64,000 bases of DNA, from positions 1 to 64,000 of the forward strand of contig JAJZAD010000006.1 of NCBI GenBank assembly GCA_021799575.1. The letters are read 5' to 3'. The notes under the pieces were generated by a model that was given only the letters and a program-made list of their open reading frames with translations, was not told the DNA's origin and searched no databases. A program made the position numbers and the translations under genes. The stretch comes from a bacterium (GTDB lineage: Bacteria > Patescibacteriota > Saccharimonadia > Saccharimonadales > UBA4665). Below, in pieces: positions 17,911 through 64,000 of the stretch (within the stretch, counting starts at the first letter, position 1; each line of letters begins with the position of its first letter).

Positions 17911-19734
17911 TTACCTTACCAGAAGATATATGATTAAAACAACTAGACTTGTGATTGTAAGCGCTAGTATTGTGTCCCATGGCTTTCGTCTTGCTTGTCC
18001 AACCCGTATTCGGACGTCTGCCGTCGCGGCGGTTTGATATGTTTTGCTCGCTACAGGAGAGGTCCCGTGTTCACTTGACTTTTGAGGACTGTTCAATATT
18101 TTACCCGTAAATGTATTATCAGTATATCCCGGCCTAAATTTATCCCTGAGTATGGGATCGCGCTCAAAATCGATTTGTCTCTCAATAATCTCGCGCTTAA
18201 CTAACGGCAATAATTCTTTACCTGACAAGTGTGCTTGAACCAGACGCCTCAACGCTCCTTCACCGAACAGATGATTTTCATACATATGTCTGAGTGATGC
18301 ACCCTCAACGGTTATCTTATCACTCAACCTTAACAAGTCGGTGCGCAACATGCTTCCGGCTTGATCAGGAGTGGCAGCTAAATCCGAAGGCTTTTCCCCG
18401 GCGGTTATTTCCCGTGTCTTTCCGTTCGATACCCTCTCTTGGTCTACTAAGACTTTTCCGATTCTGCCTGCACGTTCTGGTTTAACTAGCTTTAGCCGGC
18501 TCTCCGGATTGGACGGATTAAGTGTACGTTCACTGAACTTTAAGTTGGTCGGTTTATCTACTATCTCTTCCGGCTTAGGATTCGGTTGAGCTTTAGGTAC
18601 GGTTTTAACTTCTTCCTTACCTACTAAGACTTTTCCGATTCTGCCTGCACGTTCTGGTTTAACTAGCTTTAGCCGGCTCTCCGGATTGGACGGATTAAGT
18701 GTACGTTCACTGAACTTTAAGTTGGTCGGTTTATCTACTATCTCTTCCGGCTTAGGATTCGGCTTTAAGTCGATCCTGGAATTTTTCGGTAATGCTTCCC
18801 GGCTTAGCTGCTGGAGAGTATTTTCTTGCCTAGTTAGCTGTTGCTCCATTTGGGCTACCTTTAAGGGTGTTACCTGTACCGGATTAGATGCGGTTTTTGT
18901 GCGAGCAGGTTTTTCTTTGGCTTTGGAAGATTTGCTTCGGTCCCGTCTTTCTGAGAGTGATTTTATGAGTGTTCTAGCTATTCTTGACGGTTCTTTATGA
19001 GCTGCCGTGTATGTATTGGTCTCGGTTTTGTCGGCGGTATAAATTCTTGGCTTATCCGTCACATTGGGCAAGGTTACCGGGGATGGCAGTTCAAACAGGG
19101 TCTGGTCAGCTCCTTCATTCTCAATATCTACTGCTTTTTCTTCCGAATCCGCCGGATCAGAAGAATGGTCTATGAAATATGCTTCGCTGTTATCTTCAAG
19201 CGGTGTTTCAGTTATTGCTGTGCTGCCGCCGCTCGATTCAATACTCTGGACTGCCGGTTCGCCTCCAGACTGATTGGCTTCAGCGGTAAGTTTAAAGGCT
19301 TCGTCAGGATCGACTCCTTCGACGACTCTTCCTAAAAACTCGTTCACCGAAGAACTGGGTTGTCCTTCGACTACGGGGTTTACAAGGTGTTCTTCGGCTA
19401 TTTCCCGGTTAATGGCCGTTTCTTCCTTATAAGTCAGTTCTACTTGATCGGTTTCTGGCACGCTGTCCGATTCTGATATTAAATCCGGGATTTTGTCTTC
19501 CTTACGGTCTTGATTTAATGCTGTATCTTCGCTAGCTTCGTCTTTACCGGTCCTGCCTAACACTGAACGGACAATAGCCTCGGCAGTGCTGTATTTAGGT
19601 TTATCCGGTTGTTGCTCGGCCGATTGAAGAGAATTTATCAGTTTAGAGAACGATGGTAATTTACGCTCGGATTTGTTGTCCTTGGCATCATCATTATCGT
19701 CTTCTGGTGTTGGGAATAGCGGGCTTTCTTCCAT
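17911..19734 (-). CDS. hypothetical low-complexity, tail-anchored protein with internal duplicated segment
   Basis: 607 aa, acidic/charged low-complexity, C-terminal TM (TILALTITSLVVLIIYLLV); two identical 47-aa segments. Confidence 0.8.
   Translation of the reverse strand: MEESPLFPTPEDDNDDAKDNKSERKLPSFSKLINSLQSAEQQPDKPKYSTAEAIVRSVLGRTGKDEASEDTALNQDRKEDKIPDLISESDSVPETDQVELTYKEETAINREIAEEHLVNPVVEGQPSSSVNEFLGRVVEGVDPDEAFKLTAEANQSGGEPAVQSIESSGGSTAITETPLEDNSEAYFIDHSSDPADSEEKAVDIENEGADQTLFELPSPVTLPNVTDKPRIYTADKTETNTYTAAHKEPSRIARTLIKSLSERRDRSKSSKAKEKPARTKTASNPVQVTPLKVAQMEQQLTRQENTLQQLSREALPKNSRIDLKPNPKPEEIVDKPTNLKFSERTLNPSNPESRLKLVKPERAGRIGKVLVGKEEVKTVPKAQPNPKPEEIVDKPTNLKFSERTLNPSNPESRLKLVKPERAGRIGKVLVDQERVSNGKTREITAGEKPSDLAATPDQAGSMLRTDLLRLSDKITVEGASLRHMYENHLFGEGALRRLVQAHLSGKELLPLVKREIIERQIDFERDPILRDKFRPGYTDNTFTGKILNSPQKSSEHGTSPVASKTYQTAATADVRIRVGQARRKPWDTILALTITSLVVLIIYLLVR
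18444..18762. repeat. two copies of an exact 142-bp direct repeat, 177-bp period
   Basis: ctactaagacttttccg...ggcttaggattcgg at 18444-18585 and 18621-18762, identical on reading. Confidence 0.95.
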
Positions 19735-27800: not shown

Positions 27801-28916
27801 TCAATAAATATATACTAGACCGGCACTAGGAACTACCCTAGTGTCTACTATGTCCCAGCCGATATAGTTCATTTCGCTGATTGTGATTGTGCCATTAGCG
27901 TGGACAGCTGTAACATATGCAACGTGGCCGTAACCGACCGTGGACATTACTACCGCCGCTCCTACCGCGGGAGTTGTTCCTACCGGAAGACCGAAAGCTT
28001 CAGCCCTTATTCCCCAGGTGGCAGCATTGCCTAAATCCGTAGGCAGAGGATGACCCGCCTGAGCCCTTAGTTCGGCTACCCAATATGTACATTCACCGTA
28101 GTCGTATCCGTTGTAACCGTATAGCGGCACTGATCCCCAGACGTAGTCGGAGGCATAGGCAGAAGCCGGAGATACTTCCGTACCTCCGGGTATGATAATC
28201 CGCTCGCCAGGATATATACCTTTAATTTCAGCATCGTTATACGCTACGATCAGGGATTCGTTGGCACTGAATTTGCTAGCCAAAGATGCCGGAGTATCTC
28301 CGGGTTTCACCGTATATACAATGCCGTTAATGGGCGGGATTAGTAGTTTTACGCCAGGAGCAATATAGTTACCGACGATATTATTCGACCACATAATACT
28401 ATTGGGGGAAAGGTTAAATTTTTGCGCGATTGAATTCACACTATCACCCGGTTGAACGATATATGTTTTTATGTCTTTATTGGACACGTAATCGGTCGCT
28501 ACCACTTGCGGTTTGGAAATAACGCTGTTATTAGAAGGAGCAACCGATAATAACGCGATTTCGCTATCCGCCTGGTTTGCTATGGCCGTAGTTTCGGGCA
28601 GGTTATCCAGCCGGGCAACGGTAAGAGCAATCGAGGCGGAAGCAAGTTGATCGAGAGGGTTTATGATGCCAGACGGGTTGTTCGTATTCTGGTCGCTACC
28701 GAGCTTGGGTATCGCAGTGCCACTACCGGATGCGTTAGTAATAAAAACAATAACTAAAATAAGCAGAATAATGTCACCTGCTATAATCGCTGTCTTAATT
28801 AGGCGACGTCTGGTTAAGTGCAGACTACGTGCTAAAAACGACAGCTCTTTAGCCGAATCATCATCAAAAGGCGAAGTGTTTAAACTGAGACTACGGGAAG
28901 AAATAGTTTTATTTAT
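27801..28916 (-). CDS. membrane-anchored LysM-CHAP peptidoglycan hydrolase
   Basis: ORF track starts at GTG 28505 (234 aa: two LysM, C-terminal CHAP with GECTYWVAE and GHVAYV); frame stays open upstream to TAG at 28925-28923 and encodes a TM segment; AAGGAG at 28931-28926 sits 9 nt before an in-frame ATA at 28916. Confidence 0.75.
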   Translation of the reverse strand: MNKTISSRSLSLNTSPFDDDSAKELSFLARSLHLTRRRLIKTAIIAGDIILLILVIVFITNASGSGTAIPKLGSDQNTNNPSGIINPLDQLASASIALTVARLDNLPETTAIANQADSEIALLSVAPSNNSVISKPQVVATDYVSNKDIKTYIVQPGDSVNSIAQKFNLSPNSIMWSNNIVGNYIAPGVKLLIPPINGIVYTVKPGDTPASLASKFSANESLIVAYNDAEIKGIYPGERIIIPGGTEVSPASAYASDYVWGSVPLYGYNGYDYGECTYWVAELRAQAGHPLPTDLGNAATWGIRAEAFGLPVGTTPAVGAAVVMSTVGYGHVAYVTAVHANGTITISEMNYIGWDIVDTRVVPSAGLVYIY

Positions 28917-51640: not shown

Positions 51641-52927
51641 CTACCAGTTATGATTTGCCGTCCAATATACATAGGCTTCATACCAACCGCCATACCTAGT
51701 ATCGGCATACCAGTTACACCATTCTAGTTGGGTTATGGGATTAGTTTGCCAATCTGAACCAAAAGCGGCCATTTTATCCGGAGGAGTGGACTGGCATAAG
51801 CCATAACCGACGTAAGCATCATTGGCATATTGCTGAACAAAAGTTGCAGGACAATATCCTATGTCTCCCTGCCATTTGGTAGGACACCAACCTGATTCGT
51901 TGCTGATAATGTAATCGGCATACTGATAGTCTCCAGGAGGGATTCCGGCTAATGCCATGTCGCCCTTAATACCGGATAGGTTGGTTCCTTCCAGGATAAT
52001 TTCGGTTACCGGAGGCACGGTTATTACCGTTTGGATTGGCGTGGAACTGACCATCACTCCGTTTTGGGTATTTTCTTGATAGGTAATGACTTCCTGCCCT
52101 GCAGATCCTTGTTGTTGGATCGCATTAGTACCGTATGACAGGGAACTATCATAGACAGTATCTATCGGCATAGGTATGGTCTGGGTTACAGCGGTAACTT
52201 TAATTCCGTTCCTGACGATTGCAACCTGCATATCCGGAGTGATCGGCGTATCTAAGGCAGGTATGATCTGATCGTTTGGAGCCAGATGAATGTTATCGAG
52301 CTTAATTAAATCCGCCACGGTAGTTGCATGGGTATAAGTAACCAGCGGTATGCCATAAACGTTAAGATTGACAGGAGTTGCCGGATCGATTACTACTTGT
52401 TCTCCGATCGCCCGTTGGCTTAAAAAATTAGACGTCGGTATTGTAGAAACATAGTCAGCGGGGTTAATCTTGATGCCCGCCTGCTCGGCAATAGCCCGAG
52501 GCGTGGCGGCAGCTGAAAAAGTAAAAATATCTTGTGAGTTATCTACTATCTCAACGGGTACGGCTCGATAGATATTAATTCTAAAATCATCCTGGTTAAT
52601 GGGAGTGTTCAAGCTGGGTTCGACAACATCACCGGGATGTAAAGATATATTCAGTTTGCTTAGTAGTTTGCCGACAGTCGGTTCGATAGAGGGTACTACC
52701 TGCTGAATATGATCATGGCTAATAATAACCACCTTCGGAATCGGTACCTTTGCCGCAGAGGGCGAAGACTTTAAAACCAGAAAGCCGAGTACGGTAATAA
52801 TTAGCAGTCCTATAAAAACAAAAATCGGAACTGCAAACGGATGTCTGCTAGCCCGTTTTGCGGTCCGTAAGTGGCGTCTTTTAGCCAAAGTAAAGCGCCG
52901 TTTATACAAATTGAACTTCTTATGCAT
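51641..52927 (-). CDS. secreted/anchored Rpf/YabE-like protein: ubiquitin-like DUF348 repeats, G5 domain, C-terminal lysozyme-like domain
   Basis: 428 aa; N-terminal TM; repeats (KLLSKLNISLHPGDVVEPSLNTPI; IAEQAGIKINPADYV; DLIKLDNIHLAPNDQIIPALDTPI), G5-like YQENTQNGVMVSSTPIQTVITVPPVTEIILEGT, C-terminal YIISNESGWCPTKWQGDIGYCP...YGLCQSTP. Confidence 0.85.
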   Translation of the reverse strand: MHKKFNLYKRRFTLAKRRHLRTAKRASRHPFAVPIFVFIGLLIITVLGFLVLKSSPSAAKVPIPKVVIISHDHIQQVVPSIEPTVGKLLSKLNISLHPGDVVEPSLNTPINQDDFRINIYRAVPVEIVDNSQDIFTFSAAATPRAIAEQAGIKINPADYVSTIPTSNFLSQRAIGEQVVIDPATPVNLNVYGIPLVTYTHATTVADLIKLDNIHLAPNDQIIPALDTPITPDMQVAIVRNGIKVTAVTQTIPMPIDTVYDSSLSYGTNAIQQQGSAGQEVITYQENTQNGVMVSSTPIQTVITVPPVTEIILEGTNLSGIKGDMALAGIPPGDYQYADYIISNESGWCPTKWQGDIGYCPATFVQQYANDAYVGYGLCQSTPPDKMAAFGSDWQTNPITQLEWCNWYADTRYGGWYEAYVYWTANHNW

Positions 52928-56709: not shown

Positions 56710-57996
56710 CTACTTATCCTCCAAAGCTTCCACTCCCGGTAACTTGCGTCCGGCCATCAGTTCCAAACTCGCACCGCCTCCGGTAGAAACGTGATTAAAT
56801 TGCTCTACTAAGCCGCGGCTTTCAATGTAACCTACGGTATCTCCTCCGCCGATCAGACTAAACGGGCGATGCCCGAATAGACCGAGCAAAGCGTCGATTA
56901 CCAGTTCCGTACCATGGGCAAACGGACCGGTGGAGCCGAGCAGTGAAGCGGTTTCGGTAACCCCTAACGTACCGTTCCAGACGACGGTATTGGCTAGTTG
57001 CATACATCCGGCAATAAATGATCCGCTGAACGGTCCTATATCCAGGATCTTTTCATTCTTAGCGACATTAAGTGATGCCATAGGGGCATGCTTGGGATAG
57101 TTTTCGATCTCGGCAATCACATGCGCTCCCCAATCAACAATCCGGGTTTTGGCATTCGGTTCGGTGCTGTCCGCTACAACTCCGTCCCGGGGCAAAGCAA
57201 AAATAAATCTACGTTTAGATGCCTCTTCGTCGGCCAGTCGGACTATATCTCTAGCCAGGGGCAGATCATCCTTATCGATTAAGCTGCTGCCGATAGGCAC
57301 TCCTTGGGCCCCTACGAATGTGTTACCCATTGCGCCGCCGATAGCTACGATATCCGCCAGCTCAATGAAGCGTTTTATAAGATCGAGCTTGTCGGCAATC
57401 TTGGCTCCGCCGATAATTGCCATTAGCGGACGATTGGGTTCGGCCATGACGGTTGTGATTGTATCCACTTCGTTTTTTAACAGCAGGCCTGCGACGCTGG
57501 GTAAATACTTGGTAACGGCATCTGTCGAAGCATGAGCTCTATGCACTACCCCAAAGCCATCCTGGACGAAAAGTTCAGCCGGTTTAGCTAAAGCTTTAGC
57601 AAAGTCCGCAGAATCCTGTTCTTCTTCAGGGTGGAAACGGAGATTTTCGCACAATACAACCTCCTTGGTACCACTTTTGGATAAAGCCTGCTCAACCGGC
57701 TTGCCCACGCAATCTTTTGCAAAGTGGACTTTGACCCCCAGCAATTTTTGTAAAACCTCTACCGTAGGTCTTAGCGAATACTTCAGGTCAACTTTACCGT
57801 CCGGCCTGCCGAGATGTGAAATCAGAATAATTTTAGCGGCTTCATGATCCATTAAGTAGTTAAGTGTCGGAAGAGCTTGCTGGATACGGTAAGTATCCAT
57901 GACTTTATTGTCTTTTAGCGGTACGTTAAAATCCACTCTTACCAGTACGGTTTTGCCCTTAATATCTACATCTTCGATGGTTTTTTTACTAAACAT
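56710..57996 (-). CDS. pgk: phosphoglycerate kinase
   Basis: 428 aa; VLVRVDFNVPLKD, LISHLGRPDG, LIGGGDTVGYIE. Confidence 0.97.
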   Translation of the reverse strand: MFSKKTIEDVDIKGKTVLVRVDFNVPLKDNKVMDTYRIQQALPTLNYLMDHEAAKIILISHLGRPDGKVDLKYSLRPTVEVLQKLLGVKVHFAKDCVGKPVEQALSKSGTKEVVLCENLRFHPEEEQDSADFAKALAKPAELFVQDGFGVVHRAHASTDAVTKYLPSVAGLLLKNEVDTITTVMAEPNRPLMAIIGGAKIADKLDLIKRFIELADIVAIGGAMGNTFVGAQGVPIGSSLIDKDDLPLARDIVRLADEEASKRRFIFALPRDGVVADSTEPNAKTRIVDWGAHVIAEIENYPKHAPMASLNVAKNEKILDIGPFSGSFIAGCMQLANTVVWNGTLGVTETASLLGSTGPFAHGTELVIDALLGLFGHRPFSLIGGGDTVGYIESRGLVEQFNHVSTGGGASLELMAGRKLPGVEALEDK

Positions 57997-59432
57997 TAGT
58001 CTAACATCCTTACTTTTATGGTGTCGGTCGTACCCACTACTCCAGGGTGTTTTCCTGATACGGTTACGATAATATCTCCCTTATTAAAAATATGTTGTTT
58101 GTTCAACAGGTCGGTCAATTTAATGGCCGCATTGGCACTCACCGGCCGGACAAACGATTCGACCCCGAATACGATTGCTAATTGACGGGCGGTTAATAAT
58201 AAATCCGTGACGGCAAGAATAGGTATATTGATTCTCCTAGAGGAGATGCTGATTGCGGTAGCCCCGGTTTTAGTCTCAGCTATGATCGCTTCAGCTTTGA
58301 TGGTTTGCGCCAGCTTGATAATCGCCTCGGAAATTGCCGCTTGCATGCTATGATCTTCATCGTTTTTAAATGTGACCGACAATGGTGAATTGTTTTCGGT
58401 ATATTCAATAATGCGCCTCATGGTTTTAACCGCTTCAATCGGATAACTGCCACAAGCAGTCTCATCACTGAGCATCAAACAGTCGGCACCTACCAACACG
58501 GCCGTAGCAACATCATTAACCTCGGCTCTTGAAGGCTCTAGCTCTTCTGTCATACTGATCAACATTTGCGTGGCCACGATCGTGGGAGTAGCATATCGTC
58601 TACCCAACCCGATTATTTTTCGCTGGATAATCGGTACGCTCTCCGCAACCGTTTCCACGGCTAAATCACCCCTAGCAATCATGACTACGTCGGATTCTTT
58701 GATAATCTCTTCCAGGTTATCCATGGCAGCTCTGGTTTCTAGTTTAGCGATAATTTTAGCCTTGTAATTCATCGTGCTTAGAAGCAATCTTAAGGCTTTT
58801 ACGTCCTCGGGCGACTGGACGAAGCTGAGCGCAACGTAATCAATACCCTGATTGGCACCCCATACTAAGTCGGCCCTGTCCTTAGCGGTTATTACGTCAC
58901 CGCCAAAATCCGTATCGGGTACGTTAATACCTTTACGTTTAATTACGGTGCCGCTGTTTAGTGCTTCGACATAGACCACACCGTCCTTTATCGCACTGAC
59001 TTCCGTGCGTATGCGTCCGTCAAACAACAATACCCGCTCCCCTCTTTTAACCTTGGTGCTTAGATCATACTGGGTAGGAATATGACCGCTGGAACCATAA
59101 TCCGTATTAAGTTCAAGCGCTAAAGTCTGACCTCTTCTAACTTCTATCACTCCCTCAAAATCGCCTAATCGGATCTTTGGGCCCTGCAAATCTTGCACAA
59201 TAGCCACTTGACAACCCAGCGCGTCAGCCGCTTTACGTACCCAACGAATTTGCCGCTCCTTTTCGGCAAATGTTCCATGAGAAAAATTAAGCCTGATACC
59301 GTTCGCACCGGCTTTAATCAAATCGTAAACCGATTCGTAGCTATCCGTAGCGGGTCCGATAGTTGCAAGTATCTTGGTCCCTCTGTGATTGCTTATTGTC
59401 TGCTTTAATTTCGTTTGTTTGTTGCCCACCAT
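57996..59432 (-). CDS. pyk: pyruvate kinase
   Basis: 478 aa; ILATIGPATDS, GIRLNFSHGT, VMIARGDLAVE, MLSDETACGSYP. Confidence 0.97.
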   Translation of the reverse strand: MVGNKQTKLKQTISNHRGTKILATIGPATDSYESVYDLIKAGANGIRLNFSHGTFAEKERQIRWVRKAADALGCQVAIVQDLQGPKIRLGDFEGVIEVRRGQTLALELNTDYGSSGHIPTQYDLSTKVKRGERVLLFDGRIRTEVSAIKDGVVYVEALNSGTVIKRKGINVPDTDFGGDVITAKDRADLVWGANQGIDYVALSFVQSPEDVKALRLLLSTMNYKAKIIAKLETRAAMDNLEEIIKESDVVMIARGDLAVETVAESVPIIQRKIIGLGRRYATPTIVATQMLISMTEELEPSRAEVNDVATAVLVGADCLMLSDETACGSYPIEAVKTMRRIIEYTENNSPLSVTFKNDEDHSMQAAISEAIIKLAQTIKAEAIIAETKTGATAISISSRRINIPILAVTDLLLTARQLAIVFGVESFVRPVSANAAIKLTDLLNKQHIFNKGDIIVTVSGKHPGVVGTTDTIKVRMLD

Positions 59433-59641: not shown

Positions 59642-60151
59642 CTAAGTTGACGGCTGTTGTCCGGCGTTTAGCACTACGGGATTATGGATAAAGTTGTACC
59701 TAGCTGCTGCCGATTCGGGCAGAGTCCGTTGATCCACCTCGTCCCAGCCTACACGGTTCATTTCAGAAATTGTCCATGCGCCGGTTACGGGATTGACACT
59801 TTCAACAAAGGCGACATGTCCGAGTCCGCCAAGAGCCGATGAATCTTGCGCGATCGCCCCGAAACTGGGTGTATGATCGACAAGGTATCCGTCAGCTTCA
59901 GCTCTCACTGCCCAAGTGATAGCATTACCCCACGTATTCGGAATTGGCTCCCCTATTTGCAGCCGACGCAGTGCCGCCCAGTAAGTACATTGTCCGTAAT
60001 CGTATCTATCTGAAGCGGACTGGGGAGCAGTAAAAAGACTAACGGCTGCTTGTGCTAATGCGCCGATATTGGTCAAACTGACCAGAGCGATGACCGGTAA
60101 GCTTAAAATTAGACTCACTCCAAGTAGGGCAATAAGCGTAATTCTTTTCAC
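59642..60151 (-). CDS. secreted CHAP-domain peptidoglycan hydrolase (T4SS-operon associated)
   Basis: 169 aa, GTG start in GTGA overlap with VirB4 stop; signal-peptide-like N-terminus; YDYGQCTYWAALRR...GHVAFVESV CHAP motifs. Confidence 0.88.
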   Translation of the reverse strand: MKRITLIALLGVSLILSLPVIALVSLTNIGALAQAAVSLFTAPQSASDRYDYGQCTYWAALRRLQIGEPIPNTWGNAITWAVRAEADGYLVDHTPSFGAIAQDSSALGGLGHVAFVESVNPVTGAWTISEMNRVGWDEVDQRTLPESAAARYNFIHNPVVLNAGQQPST

Positions 60152-61860
60152 GCGTATAGTTCTTTCGGATCGGTGGTAATTAGCGGGTGTTCAGTTTCCG
60201 AGGCCACAAAACTCAATGCTACGTGGTTCAGGTCGGCTATGATAAGACCGTCGCCACGCTCCGAAGAAAGCAAATAGCTCTGCTCGTACTCGCTCAATTT
60301 AAAAGCTTCGGCAACGTTGGCAATGGACGTGCTGTCCTGGCGCATCAAGATCCGAAGCGCGCTTTGGCTGGCGATGGTTTTGCCGTGTTCGTTAGTTAAA
60401 AAATCATTTGCCTGTTGGGAAATCATCGAAACGCCTAAATAATATTTACGGGCACGACGGGTTAGCGAGGAAATGAAGCGCGCACTTTGTTCGTGTTGCA
60501 GAAGCAGCCATCCTTCATCGATCACCAAAAGCCGTTTTTTGGGTTCGTTTTTAACTTTCGACCAAACGTAGTTTGCAATAATCACCATCATGATTTGACG
60601 AATACTTTCAGGCAGGTTTTTAATGTCGAAAATTACTAAGCGGTTGTTTAAGTCTATGTCCGTTTGGTGGTTAAAAACCTGACTGAGTGATCCGTTAACG
60701 TATTTATCAAGCCTCTCGGCAAGTCTAAGTTCGCCCAGATCTATCAGTCGCTGGTAAAAATCCTGCAAAGTAGGGGTATCGTCCTTTTTTGTGATAGATC
60801 TTAGTGTTGCCAATATGGACTTGTCGATAACGGCTGCTTCACGCGCATTAAGTCCTCCGAGCATTAAAGAAACGATCTCGGTAAGATCTTGAATTTGATC
60901 CGTTGACTTAGTCTGCAAAGCCGTATTGAATCCTAAATCAAACGGATTAATATGTTGTTTGGAGTCCGTAGACAGCTCAATGAGGGTTCCGTTTACCGAC
61001 TCGGCGAGTTTTACATATTCACGTTCGGGGTCGATTACGATTACGTCTGTTCCAAGCATTAGCTGCCTTAGGATTTCGACTTTACTGGCATAACTCTTGC
61101 CGCTGCCCGATTGAGCAAAGGTAATCGAATTGGCATTGTTCAGGCTAAACCGATCAAGCATCACCAGTGAATTATTGCTCTTGTTGACGCCGTACAGAAT
61201 ACCGCTTTCTTGTACTAGTTCAGATGAAATAAAAGGAAAGCTAAGAGCCGCGGAGCTGCTGTCTAGATTACGTTTTTGGCGTAACCGGTCTTCACCGCGC
61301 GGTAAAACCGACTGTAAAGCTTCAAGTTGTTGGTAACGGGCACATTTTATAAAGAAAAGGTGTGATGTCAGTGCGGTTTCCACCAGCTTGGTCACTCTAT
61401 TTAAGTCCGGCAGGGAATCGGCGCGTAAACAGACGCAAATCGACACTTGAAACAATCTCTCCTGTCCTCTCTGGATTTTATTTCTAAGCTCCAAGGCCGA
61501 TTCAAGAGGATCGGTAATATCCGAGCTGATAACGCGTCCGGATTTTATCATGGCGCGTTTAGTCGATTCCAACTCGGTAATTTTGCGTTGCAATTTGGGT
61601 AGAGCAATAATAGAATCAACATCCTCAATATGGAAAGATATATCGGCATTACGGTTAAAGTTAATCAAGCTGCTCAACCAACCGCAGTAGGCAACATAAG
61701 GGTAGCCTGAAACATATAGCACGCGCATATATTGCCCGTCTATCAGCAAATAATCGGGTTGTTCTTCAAGTCCTGAATAACCGATAAGGTCGAATTGATC
61801 TTGTTCTCCCAAGCAAATCTGGTGCGACTCATTGGGACGTTTAGGAAACCTTATTTTCAT
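60148..61860 (-). CDS. VirB4-like type IV secretion ATPase
   Basis: 570 aa; Walker A FAQSGSGKSYASKVE, Walker B KRLLVIDEGWLLL, CagE/TrbE/VirB N-terminal region. Confidence 0.92.
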   Translation of the reverse strand: MKIRFPKRPNESHQICLGEQDQFDLIGYSGLEEQPDYLLIDGQYMRVLYVSGYPYVAYCGWLSSLINFNRNADISFHIEDVDSIIALPKLQRKITELESTKRAMIKSGRVISSDITDPLESALELRNKIQRGQERLFQVSICVCLRADSLPDLNRVTKLVETALTSHLFFIKCARYQQLEALQSVLPRGEDRLRQKRNLDSSSAALSFPFISSELVQESGILYGVNKSNNSLVMLDRFSLNNANSITFAQSGSGKSYASKVEILRQLMLGTDVIVIDPEREYVKLAESVNGTLIELSTDSKQHINPFDLGFNTALQTKSTDQIQDLTEIVSLMLGGLNAREAAVIDKSILATLRSITKKDDTPTLQDFYQRLIDLGELRLAERLDKYVNGSLSQVFNHQTDIDLNNRLVIFDIKNLPESIRQIMMVIIANYVWSKVKNEPKKRLLVIDEGWLLLQHEQSARFISSLTRRARKYYLGVSMISQQANDFLTNEHGKTIASQSALRILMRQDSTSIANVAEAFKLSEYEQSYLLSSERGDGLIIADLNHVALSFVASETEHPLITTDPKELYA

Positions 61861-62480
61861 TTGCCTGCCCCTATAAAAACGGTGTGCATCTTATTAAGTA
61901 TTACTTCGTTAATCGGCTGGGTTTTGGCCTGGACGGGGTTGTAAAAACTATAGAACAAATTTAGAAGTTCGACTCCGCTTAACAATCTGGCGTGCATACC
62001 CATTCTCTGAAGTCCTTTGGTAACAATTTCGATCCTCAGGGCTAACTGTTCGCGAGCCGTTTCAAAATCGTGTTTAGATACGATGTCGATGGGTACAACC
62101 AGATAGAAGTTACGGCTCAAAATCCTGTTGACACTAACCAACGAGCGGATAAATTCACAGTAACCTCGAGCCTGCCTTTTATAGATTTCCGACTTTTCCA
62201 GTCTGGTAGTCGATTCGATATTGTTAAGATAGTCATCCAAATCCACCTCGCGTATTCGCACGATAATCTGTAGGGGACAGCCTAAGCCGTTAAGAAAGCT
62301 TTGGTAGGTCTCAATCAACGCATCTTGTTCCGCTTCGCTTTTAAGCTCAAAATTTACCGAAGAGGTTTCAATAACGCTTCGGTAATGACCGGTTTTTAAG
62401 ACCAAAGTCTCGTTTATGACGCTGTTAATATCTATCTGTTCTTTAGCCGAACCCCGTTTACTTGACCTCAATAATTGCAC
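61857..62480 (-). CDS. hypothetical T4SS-associated protein
   Basis: 207 aa; GTG start, ATGA overlap with virB4-like gene. Confidence 0.75.
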   Translation of the reverse strand: MQLLRSSKRGSAKEQIDINSVINETLVLKTGHYRSVIETSSVNFELKSEAEQDALIETYQSFLNGLGCPLQIIVRIREVDLDDYLNNIESTTRLEKSEIYKRQARGYCEFIRSLVSVNRILSRNFYLVVPIDIVSKHDFETAREQLALRIEIVTKGLQRMGMHARLLSGVELLNLFYSFYNPVQAKTQPINEVILNKMHTVFIGAGK

Positions 62481-62952
62481 TGAAGAGTCCTTTCTTTCCC
62501 CTGATAAACTTAATTTGCTTGCCGCTTAAAAAGTCATTGATCTCAATATTCTGCTGGGGCAATAACTGATGCGTTCGAAGCGTCTTAACCGCCGTATCGG
62601 TATTTGGCTTAGGAGTTGTAACGATGGTTTTTTCAACCAAGCAAGTACATTTACCACTCCTCTGGCTTAAAAGATAAACCCTCGGTCTTATTTGATACGC
62701 CAAAAGCACCGCCAGCCATTTAAGTACCAATTGGCCCCGAATTCGGATAGCCAGCGTCGCCTCGGGTAAGCTAAGCAGTATTAAAACAACTAGTTTATAC
62801 GGTTTTAGATGCATGACCGGAGGCAGGCCGGCAAATACAAAAACGGCCATAAAGACAGGAACGATTAGTAGGATGATCTGGGTCAAGGAAAGATTGGCAA
62901 CGATTAAGTCTTCGATTGAAGTAACCTGCGCCGGGACAATTGCGGTTTTCAT
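62458..62952 (-). CDS. PrgI-family-like membrane protein
   Basis: 164 aa; two adjacent TM segments near N-terminus, soluble C-terminal; position upstream of VirB4. Confidence 0.7.
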   Translation of the reverse strand: MKTAIVPAQVTSIEDLIVANLSLTQIILLIVPVFMAVFVFAGLPPVMHLKPYKLVVLILLSLPEATLAIRIRGQLVLKWLAVLLAYQIRPRVYLLSQRSGKCTCLVEKTIVTTPKPNTDTAVKTLRTHQLLPQQNIEINDFLSGKQIKFIRGKKGLFSAIIEVK

Positions 62953-63986
62953 GCTTTGTCCTTCTTATCCGGAGTTTTATTTGTTCCGTGATATATCTGC
63001 GGTTTGGCTGCCGGGATCAGGTTTCTTACACTTTCACCAACGGCATTCACTGCCGGGCTTATGGTATGCGTATAAGAATAGCGGGCACTTAAGGCAAAAT
63101 AACTTATACCGTTTATAAAACTGCCGCTTAAGCGTCTGGCTCCGCGTAAGCCCAGACTGGCATAGTTAAGCTGCATTAATACGCCCTGGGTTTTAATTAA
63201 AGCAATTAGCGCGGCCAGCCCCAGCAGCAAAGACATTATCGGATCCGGAGTACCATTACCGCCTTTGACTATGCCGGCAAACAAAGAGCCGGCAAGGCTT
63301 AATATAATGACATGAACAAAGAGGACAAATACCGTAGCCAGATAGGTTTTTAAAGTGTTTTCGGCAAAATCTCTGAACCCTGGCAGCAGCCACATTACGA
63401 TAATTAAGGGTGATAATATGGCTCCCAGATATAACGCTATTATCCTGCCGATATAGTAAATCAACAGGATAACACTAAACGCCAGGAAGATTACGAAAAC
63501 AATCAATGCCGCCAGACTATAACCCGACACGCTGGATACGACGTTCAGCAATGCATTCCACGGTGTAACGTTGCCCATGCCGGCCCTGACGGCGGAGATC
63601 ATAACATTAGACAGTTCTATAACCCCGTCGAGCAAGTAAATCGAAGTGTTGATCAATACCACTGCAAGTAATAGCTGGGGTAAAAACTGTCTTAAGCTGA
63701 TATCTTTCAAGCCGAAATATTCTCCGCTCATAATATGGAAACCTACTAAGGAAATTACCAATGCTAAAAGACTATCGGCGATGCCCGTGCAAACGACCCA
63801 AAGATGTACCACGCTTGAGTTGTGAGTAAGCAGCGGTGTTGATTTGGTAAAGTAGCCGAGGGCGGAAATAAACGGTTTACCAACGGTTTCCGCTATATCC
63901 TTAAGCATCCCAGTAATGGCACTGATCAGTACTCCCACCAAACCGCCGCCGGATTTAACCGGTTTGACAGCCGTTAGAAACGGCAA
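62949..63986 (-). CDS. VirB6/TrbL-like multi-pass membrane protein (5' end possibly beyond window)
   Basis: 345 aa from TTG start; 6-7 TM segments; gene start lies at window edge. Confidence 0.72.
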   Translation of the reverse strand: MPFLTAVKPVKSGGGLVGVLISAITGMLKDIAETVGKPFISALGYFTKSTPLLTHNSSVVHLWVVCTGIADSLLALVISLVGFHIMSGEYFGLKDISLRQFLPQLLLAVVLINTSIYLLDGVIELSNVMISAVRAGMGNVTPWNALLNVVSSVSGYSLAALIVFVIFLAFSVILLIYYIGRIIALYLGAILSPLIIVMWLLPGFRDFAENTLKTYLATVFVLFVHVIILSLAGSLFAGIVKGGNGTPDPIMSLLLGLAALIALIKTQGVLMQLNYASLGLRGARRLSGSFINGISYFALSARYSYTHTISPAVNAVGESVRNLIPAAKPQIYHGTNKTPDKKDKA

Positions 63987-64000
63987 TTTTGGAGTTGAAC

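Follow-up and report, generated by a model that had tools for sequence, protein, structure and literature searches.

The window analysed here (bases 1 to 64,000 of the 69,078-base contig JAJZAD010000006.1, C15, from an 805-kb, 92% complete genome of the Saccharimonadales, UBA4665) ends within an operon for a compact type IV secretion system (T4SS) that is present beside the canonical T4SS of the same genome and is phylogenetically separate from it. The operon encodes a VirB2-like pilin, a VirB6 with a pilin domain fused to its N-terminus, a PrgI/VirB3-like protein, TrsD, the VirB4 ATPase and a CHAP-domain wall hydrolase; the pilin gene lies just upstream of VirB6 and outside the window, and the operon therefore consists of six genes. 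Based on the kind of VirB4, its VirB3/PrgI and VirB6 partners, the wall hydrolase and an unlinked VirD4, the system belongs to the MPF_FATA type, and it probably derives from a VirD4-linked conjugation module that is now a fixed chromosomal translocation system, with VirD4 kept at another fixed locus. The components themselves are known, and what looks new is a second, compact T4SS in the same cell.

A second system beside the canonical T4SS

As has been reported previously, T4SSs occur in the Saccharibacteria, which are tiny epibionts, and one has been reported to be essential (PMC12102498, PMC10633639). The canonical system of this genome is located on contig C2 beside dnaA, dnaN and recF and comprises six pilins, PrgI (313 residues), TrsD (285 residues), VirB4 (642 residues), a VirB6-like protein (1034 residues) and a CHAP protein. 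The compact and canonical VirB4 are 38% identical, and a tree of 71 VirB4 sequences places the window's type in its own clade (support 100/100) apart from the canonical clade; the locus is further set apart by its single pilin, its 434-residue fused VirB6 and its position next to pyruvate kinase (pyk). An earlier note on this DNA had proposed a compact T4SS operon with a CHAP hydrolase in a saccharibacterium, which is borne out, though it had not seen that the system is the second one in its genome. In an even draw of the class (295 genomes; two main families), approximately 30 genomes possess the compact type, by our own count of matches with at least 58% identity.

Replacement of the canonical system by the compact one in some species was considered and dropped. 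Eight genomes of the window's genus (G004, G008, G010, G011, G013, G014, G015 and G016), all of them metagenome-assembled genomes (MAGs) and two of them rated 94–97% complete, have no match to canonical VirB4 and likewise none to dnaA, in a dnaA search that had no positive control among them. The origin region is probably missing from these MAGs, and because the dnaA match is also absent, the absence of the canonical locus there is not evidence. Such missing origin regions are a trap for presence/absence claims on the canonical T4SS.

TrsD, VirB4 and the pilin-fused VirB6

The VirB4 matches the CD1110-family model NF045971 (E = 2e-115; 386.8 bits against a cut-off of 325) and PF19044 (P-loop_TraG), with both the Walker A (residues 249–256) and Walker B (residues 444–451) motifs intact. 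The 207-residue protein encoded immediately before it, suggested in the earlier note as an undescribed subunit, is TrsD, a separate polypeptide that corresponds to the N-terminal domain of VirB4. As its match to the TrsD/TraD model NF041427 (1e-9, 38 bits) falls under the curated cut-off of 200, this assignment rests on profile, fold and fusion together. The 207-residue sequence aligns with the N-terminal portions of two VirB4 families (NF045975 and NF045971) and, just under the cut-off, PF11130 (2e-6); a search of the PDB by sequence returned nothing useful, and its AlphaFold2 model (predicted local distance difference test score, 77.8) has TrwK/VirB4 of R388 as its top PDB matches (E = 7e-5). 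In a divergent relative (L057), TrsD and VirB4 occur as a natural fusion of 729 residues, of which residues 1–168 align to the TrsD profile (probability 99.1). Together, the TrsD and VirB4 profiles, the fold match and the fusion rule out a new subunit. TrsD is already known and common in the Patescibacteria, where it was the most abundant T4SS component in a survey with hidden Markov models (PMC12102498).

VirB6 matches the T4SS pilin family PF18895 at residues 8–68 (1.6e-6) and PF19597 at residues 107–366 (27.3 bits against a cut-off of 27), with PF04610 at its cut-off. The stand-alone pilin matches PF18895 (6e-12), PF04956 (1e-8) and, above its cut-off, NF045849, and a profile built from the stand-alone compact pilins matches the N-terminus of every full-length compact VirB6 (54 of 54) and gives no match to this genome's canonical VirB6. 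In the AlphaFold2 model, VirB6 begins with a two-helix hairpin (residues 2–79), followed by a disordered linker (approximately residues 81–107) and a helical body. In known systems VirB6 is a pentamer and the proposed platform for VirB2 stacking, a role stated to be untested (PMC12857230), and because of this proposed role the fused pilin could supply the first pilin layer. No published report of a VirB6–pilin fusion was found with a narrow query of one open-access literature collection. The fusion bears directly on whether VirB6 acts as the platform of the pilus (PMC12857230), and the six-gene module is a tractable setting for how VirB6 starts a pilus.

PrgI matches PF12666 with 29.3 bits (cut-off, 27) and carries two hydrophobic segments. 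The CHAP protein, which has a hydrophobic segment at residues 6–24, is encoded next to VirB4 and its residues C55, H112, E130 and N132 are invariant in 22 of 22 homologues, as befits the VirB1-like wall hydrolase of an MPF_FATA T4SS; some relatives possess an M23 hydrolase instead. Further wall-active proteins are encoded at window positions 27801–28505 and 51641–52927, namely a LysM-CHAP protein and one with DUF348/G5 that is similar to resuscitation-promoting factors.

Genomic settings, VirD4 and possible function

Mapping of 61 loci and a further 20 placed the module in three settings. In the window's genus it immediately precedes pyk-pgk-tpi, in the same orientation, in all 16 genomes with a readable downstream side, usually with 27–209 bases between the hydrolase gene and pyk (−4 and 455 bases in two genomes), and the VirB4s from this site form one clade (100/100). 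In several other genomes the module is found beside dnaA, while in many Saccharibacteria a gene for a VirD4-type coupling protein (approximately 860 residues) comes after it. The neighbours in this third, mobile-like setting are variable (e.g., BREX, restriction-modification, SMODS and reverse transcriptase genes), and a PLD-family nuclease is present on the other strand in 16 of 32 loci, compared with none of the 13 pyk loci. VirD4-linked rows account for 31 of the 71 in the VirB4 tree, and in L057, which branches first within the compact clade, VirD4 is linked and VirB4 unsplit; in the pyk and dnaA settings VirD4 is almost always unlinked but retained elsewhere. The module also occurs outside the Saccharibacteria in Daviesbacteria (VirB4 approximately 62% identical to that of the window), and a nominal Roizmanbacteria MAG has a VirB4 that shares 98.8% identity with one from a saccharibacterium, which may reflect transfer or mis-binning.

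No integrase was found in the VirD4-linked loci or seen near the module at the pyk site. The conservation among relatives that the earlier note had suggested checking is seen throughout the resolvable genomes of the genus, and the ordinary integrative and conjugative element that it had named as a refutation is not recognisable at a fixed site with no linked relaxase and no integrase near the module. A common integrase or tRNA site for the VirD4-linked form was also considered and rejected, with no integrase found and a tRNA pair in three loci (L072, L086 and L095) that is not general. These three, from different genomes, share a tRNA-Cys(gca)/tRNA-Leu(taa) pair near the PLD gene, a possible hotspot for insertion. 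Opposite VirD4-linked compact T4SSs (e.g., L073:12792-13564, L069, L075 and L090) a PLDc_2 protein is accompanied by a protein of approximately 72 residues and of no known family, the latter in 13 of the 32 loci, possibly as a DNA-processing or toxin pair.

The absence of VirD4 reported in the earlier note holds for the window, but the VirD4 of this system is encoded elsewhere in the genome. Searching with the linked VirD4 recovered homologues from all genomes of the genus, with the closer type in 18 of 19 at a separate locus (42–53% identical to that of this genome where full length). In this genome (G000) it is an intact, unlinked open reading frame (ORF) of 736 residues (C1:35987-38197), the internal stops reported for the match falling past its end, and loss of VirD4 is thereby ruled out. 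The copies from the genus group in a single clade (100/100), and they and the linked VirD4s stand apart from two general type IV coupling proteins of this genome (100/99). Across 61 genomes, compact VirB4 and compact VirD4 were both present in 22 and both absent in 33, with VirB4 only in 2 and VirD4 only in 4 (Fisher p = 1.5e-10; outside the genus, p = 4e-5), using presence thresholds set by eye and tests that ignore phylogeny. VirD4 distances track VirB4 distances (r = 0.88) and equally pgk distances (r = 0.88), and because pgk gives the same value the correlation reflects vertical co-inheritance and not specific co-evolution. Loss of the VirD4 membrane anchor in the genus was rejected, as hydropathy had no consistent pattern.

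A genome-wide relaxase search covering PF03432 and PF13814 recovered no PF03432 relaxase and a weak Replic_Relax match, on another element on C16, from a model that also scores winged-helix regulators. That element (G000:C16:29000-40751; L168:2087-11498) encodes a 586-residue protein reading like a large serine recombinase, the 264-residue ORF with the weak match, and two methylase-like ORFs with a restriction-like ORF after them; it has no T4SS genes.

All six genes of the compact operon are under purifying selection. In genus pairs with unsaturated dS, the ratio of nonsynonymous to synonymous substitution rates (dN/dS; approximate, with dS >1 in some pairs) was 0.03–0.08 for the pilin, VirB6, TrsD and VirB4, 0.08–0.10 for CHAP and 0.13–0.23 for PrgI, compared with 0.03–0.08 for pyk, pgk, tpi and uvrD, so that the operon's overall range of 0.03–0.23 is similar to that of pyk, pgk and tpi; the VirB6 of L044/L045 (0.12 at a dS of 2.5) was too saturated to weigh.

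Under the preferred reading of a conjugation module turned fixed translocation system, the ancestor would have been linked to its own VirD4, as in relatives, and in the window's genus the module would have become fixed upstream of pyk-pgk-tpi, losing any linked mobilisation genes and keeping VirD4 at another fixed locus. The CHAP protein would open the peptidoglycan locally and TrsD–VirB4, anchored by VirB3, would energise assembly; VirB6 would serve as the platform, its fused pilin hairpins forming or mimicking the first pilin layer for VirB2 stacking, and VirD4 would pass substrate into the channel for delivery to a neighbour or host cell in contact. Protein export is the favoured use because no relaxase accompanies the compact system. 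Host-directed export is the standing hypothesis for such T4SSs (PMC10633639, PMC12102498), and contact-dependent export to a host or neighbour is favoured here by analogy with the essential canonical system (PMC10633639). That essential system is without a known substrate, and a second, smaller system with VirD4-linked relatives offers a natural series from conjugation to domesticated secretion. A bolder proposal, advanced tentatively, is of a second T4SS lineage in which the built-in pilin of VirB6 seeds the pilus and a mobile module was independently domesticated beside pyk and beside dnaA, its coupling protein having moved, to give a host-interaction machine alongside the essential one.

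Among the alternatives, it is conceivable but unlikely that the system is still a conjugation machine, used in trans by relaxases on other elements and moving mobilisable elements or chromosomal DNA. VirD4 is retained and co-inherited, related modules sit with defence genes (BREX, restriction-modification and CBASS-like SMODS) and in part with the PLD-family nuclease, and the C16 element has its recombinase-like protein and Replic_Relax match; however, that match is weak and its model also scores winged-helix regulators, PF03432 was not found in the genome, the PLD nuclease is absent from this genome as well as from all 13 mapped pyk loci, and the site is fixed rather than mobile. Less probable still is an apparatus for DNA import or attachment (Ced/Ted-like, or a pilus only) instead of an exporter. 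The very small core (VirB2, B3, B4 and B6) resembles the reduced Ced/Ted systems (PMC12102498), one pilin with a pilin-fused VirB6 points to a pilus, and Patescibacteria need external nucleotides, while the retention of a VirD4-type coupling protein and a wall hydrolase is a better fit to export and the VirB4 groups with MPF_FATA conjugation. That the locus is merely an extra copy of the known essential T4SS is highly improbable: it shares the VirB3/TrsD/VirB4/VirB6/VirB2 toolkit of the C2 locus, but the VirB4 divergence and separate clade, the number of pilins, the length and fusion of VirB6, the distinct genomic sites and the distinct VirD4 clade all argue otherwise, and the VirB4 tree refutes the idea unless overturned. 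A decaying remnant of an integrated conjugative element, which would account for the absence of relaxase, integrase and linked VirD4 at the locus, is scarcely credible and largely refuted by dN/dS, as six intact genes are under purifying selection in every comparison with unsaturated dS, the CHAP catalytic residues are invariant and the Walker motifs are intact.

Several points weigh against the preferred reading. The VirB6 and PrgI domain matches are only slightly above cut-off, and a fold search with VirB6 gave no significant match, with R388 VirB6 found weakly (7o3v_F, probability 0.89, E = 1.0). The role of the fused pilin as a first layer or ring is conjectured from other systems, and none of the operon genes was recognised as encoding a VirB8-like protein, a subunit seldom found in Patescibacteria (PMC12102498). 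A change from mobile to fixed would follow from one long-branched basal row and parsimony, the co-occurrence counts are not independent of phylogeny, the genomes compared are all MAGs, and the evidence as a whole is computational, drawn from genes and genomes.

Operon layout and likeness to known systems

The five consecutive, overlapping minus-strand ORFs first described at 59642–63986 are present with the overlaps claimed for them (Table 1), and no relaxase, VirD4 or transposase is visible within the 64-kb window, as had been observed. The VirB6-like, PrgI-like, VirB4-like and CHAP identities proposed in the earlier note all have Pfam support, although its VirB6 was cut by the window edge; in the full contig the gene's start codon is the ATG at window-equivalent 64253, which makes the TTG at 63986 an edge artefact. 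Its five-gene operon was real but one gene short, and the extension past 64000 that it had suggested recovered the pilin while the remaining 5 kb of the contig upstream of the operon contained no relaxase, VirD4 or integrase. As gene order is kept in dozens of loci and the overlaps recur, the arrangement is not due to chance.

Table 1. Positions of the operon genes and the adjoining pyk, with gene overlaps and the fraction of mapped loci in which each recurs
Feature	Position in window	Strand	Evidence or remark	Overlap with the gene upstream	Recurrence
pyk (pyruvate kinase)	57996..59432	-	Heads the pyk-pgk-tpi genes downstream of the operon; landmark of the fixed chromosomal site		
VirB1-like CHAP hydrolase, 169 aa, N-terminal signal/anchor helix	59642..60151	-	PF05257 E=2e-15	4 bases (60148-60151)	48/54
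VirB4 ATPase, 570 aa, motor half without N-terminal domain	60148..61860	-	NF045971, PF19044	4 bases (61857-61860)	54/59
TrsD, 207 aa, VirB4 N-terminal domain encoded as its own gene	61857..62480	-	Profile, fold and fusion	23 bases (62458-62480)	44/45
PrgI/VirB3-like membrane protein, 164 aa	62458..62952	-	PF12666 E=1.3e-6	4 bases (62949-62952)	42/46
VirB6/TrbL, 434 aa, N-terminal T4SS pilin domain	62949..64000, on to window-equivalent 64253 (L006:4950-6254)	-	PF18895, PF19597, PF04610		
VirB2-like pilin, 113 aa	Wholly outside; window-equivalent 64258-64599 (L006:6259-6600)		PF18895, PF04956, NF045849		

The genes between the pilin gene and the contig end are unrelated and encode a VIT1-family protein, a secreted-repeat protein, and SHOCT and YdjM proteins; at the contig end (L006:10225-10746) adjoining ORFs of 87 and 85 residues read like a RelE/ParE-type toxin and an antitoxin. 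A scan for promoters and terminators gave matches no more frequent than in shuffles. Elsewhere in the window (17911–19734), a 607-residue protein contains two near-identical tandem copies of approximately 50 residues (PNPKPEEIVDKPTNLKFSERTLNPSNPESRLKLVKPERAGRIGKVLV).

Of the known systems, the canonical T4SS of Patescibacteria and Saccharibacteria (SEML1_0006-0019 of Southlakia epibionticum; PMC10633639, PMC12102498) likewise has VirB2-like pilins, PrgI/VirB3, TrsD, VirB4, VirB6 and a peptidoglycan hydrolase, and is also chromosomal without a linked relaxase or VirD4. It differs in having six divergent pilins, a 285-residue TrsD, a 642-residue VirB4, a 1034-residue VirB6 without a pilin domain and a dnaA site, where the compact system has one pilin, a TrsD of 207 residues, a VirB4 of 570, the pilin-fused VirB6 of 434 and a pyk site. 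MPF_FATA systems of the pGO1/pSK41 type (TrsD/TrsE; e.g., Lactococcus pUC08B) also encode a separate TrsD just before the VirB4 motor with a CHAP protein nearby, but possess a MobQ relaxase, have no recognised pilin-fused VirB6 and have a VirB4 26% identical to that of the window.

The CD1110/Mbov_0397-family elements (of Firmicutes, mycoplasma integrative and conjugative elements and a Pontibacillus plasmid), for which the window's VirB4 scores above the CD1110 cut-off, share a pilin-like Mbov_0395 protein, an ORF of approximately 275 residues overlapping VirB4 and a peptidase adjoining VirB4; they differ in a VirB4 of 37% identity and a VirB6 of 779 residues with no pilin match in Pfam. The archaeal Ced/Ted DNA-import systems, likened here by the description of their components, also have a reduced set of pilin, VirB6-like and VirB4-like proteins (PMC12102498), whereas the compact system is bacterial and possesses a wall hydrolase, a split-off TrsD and a VirD4.

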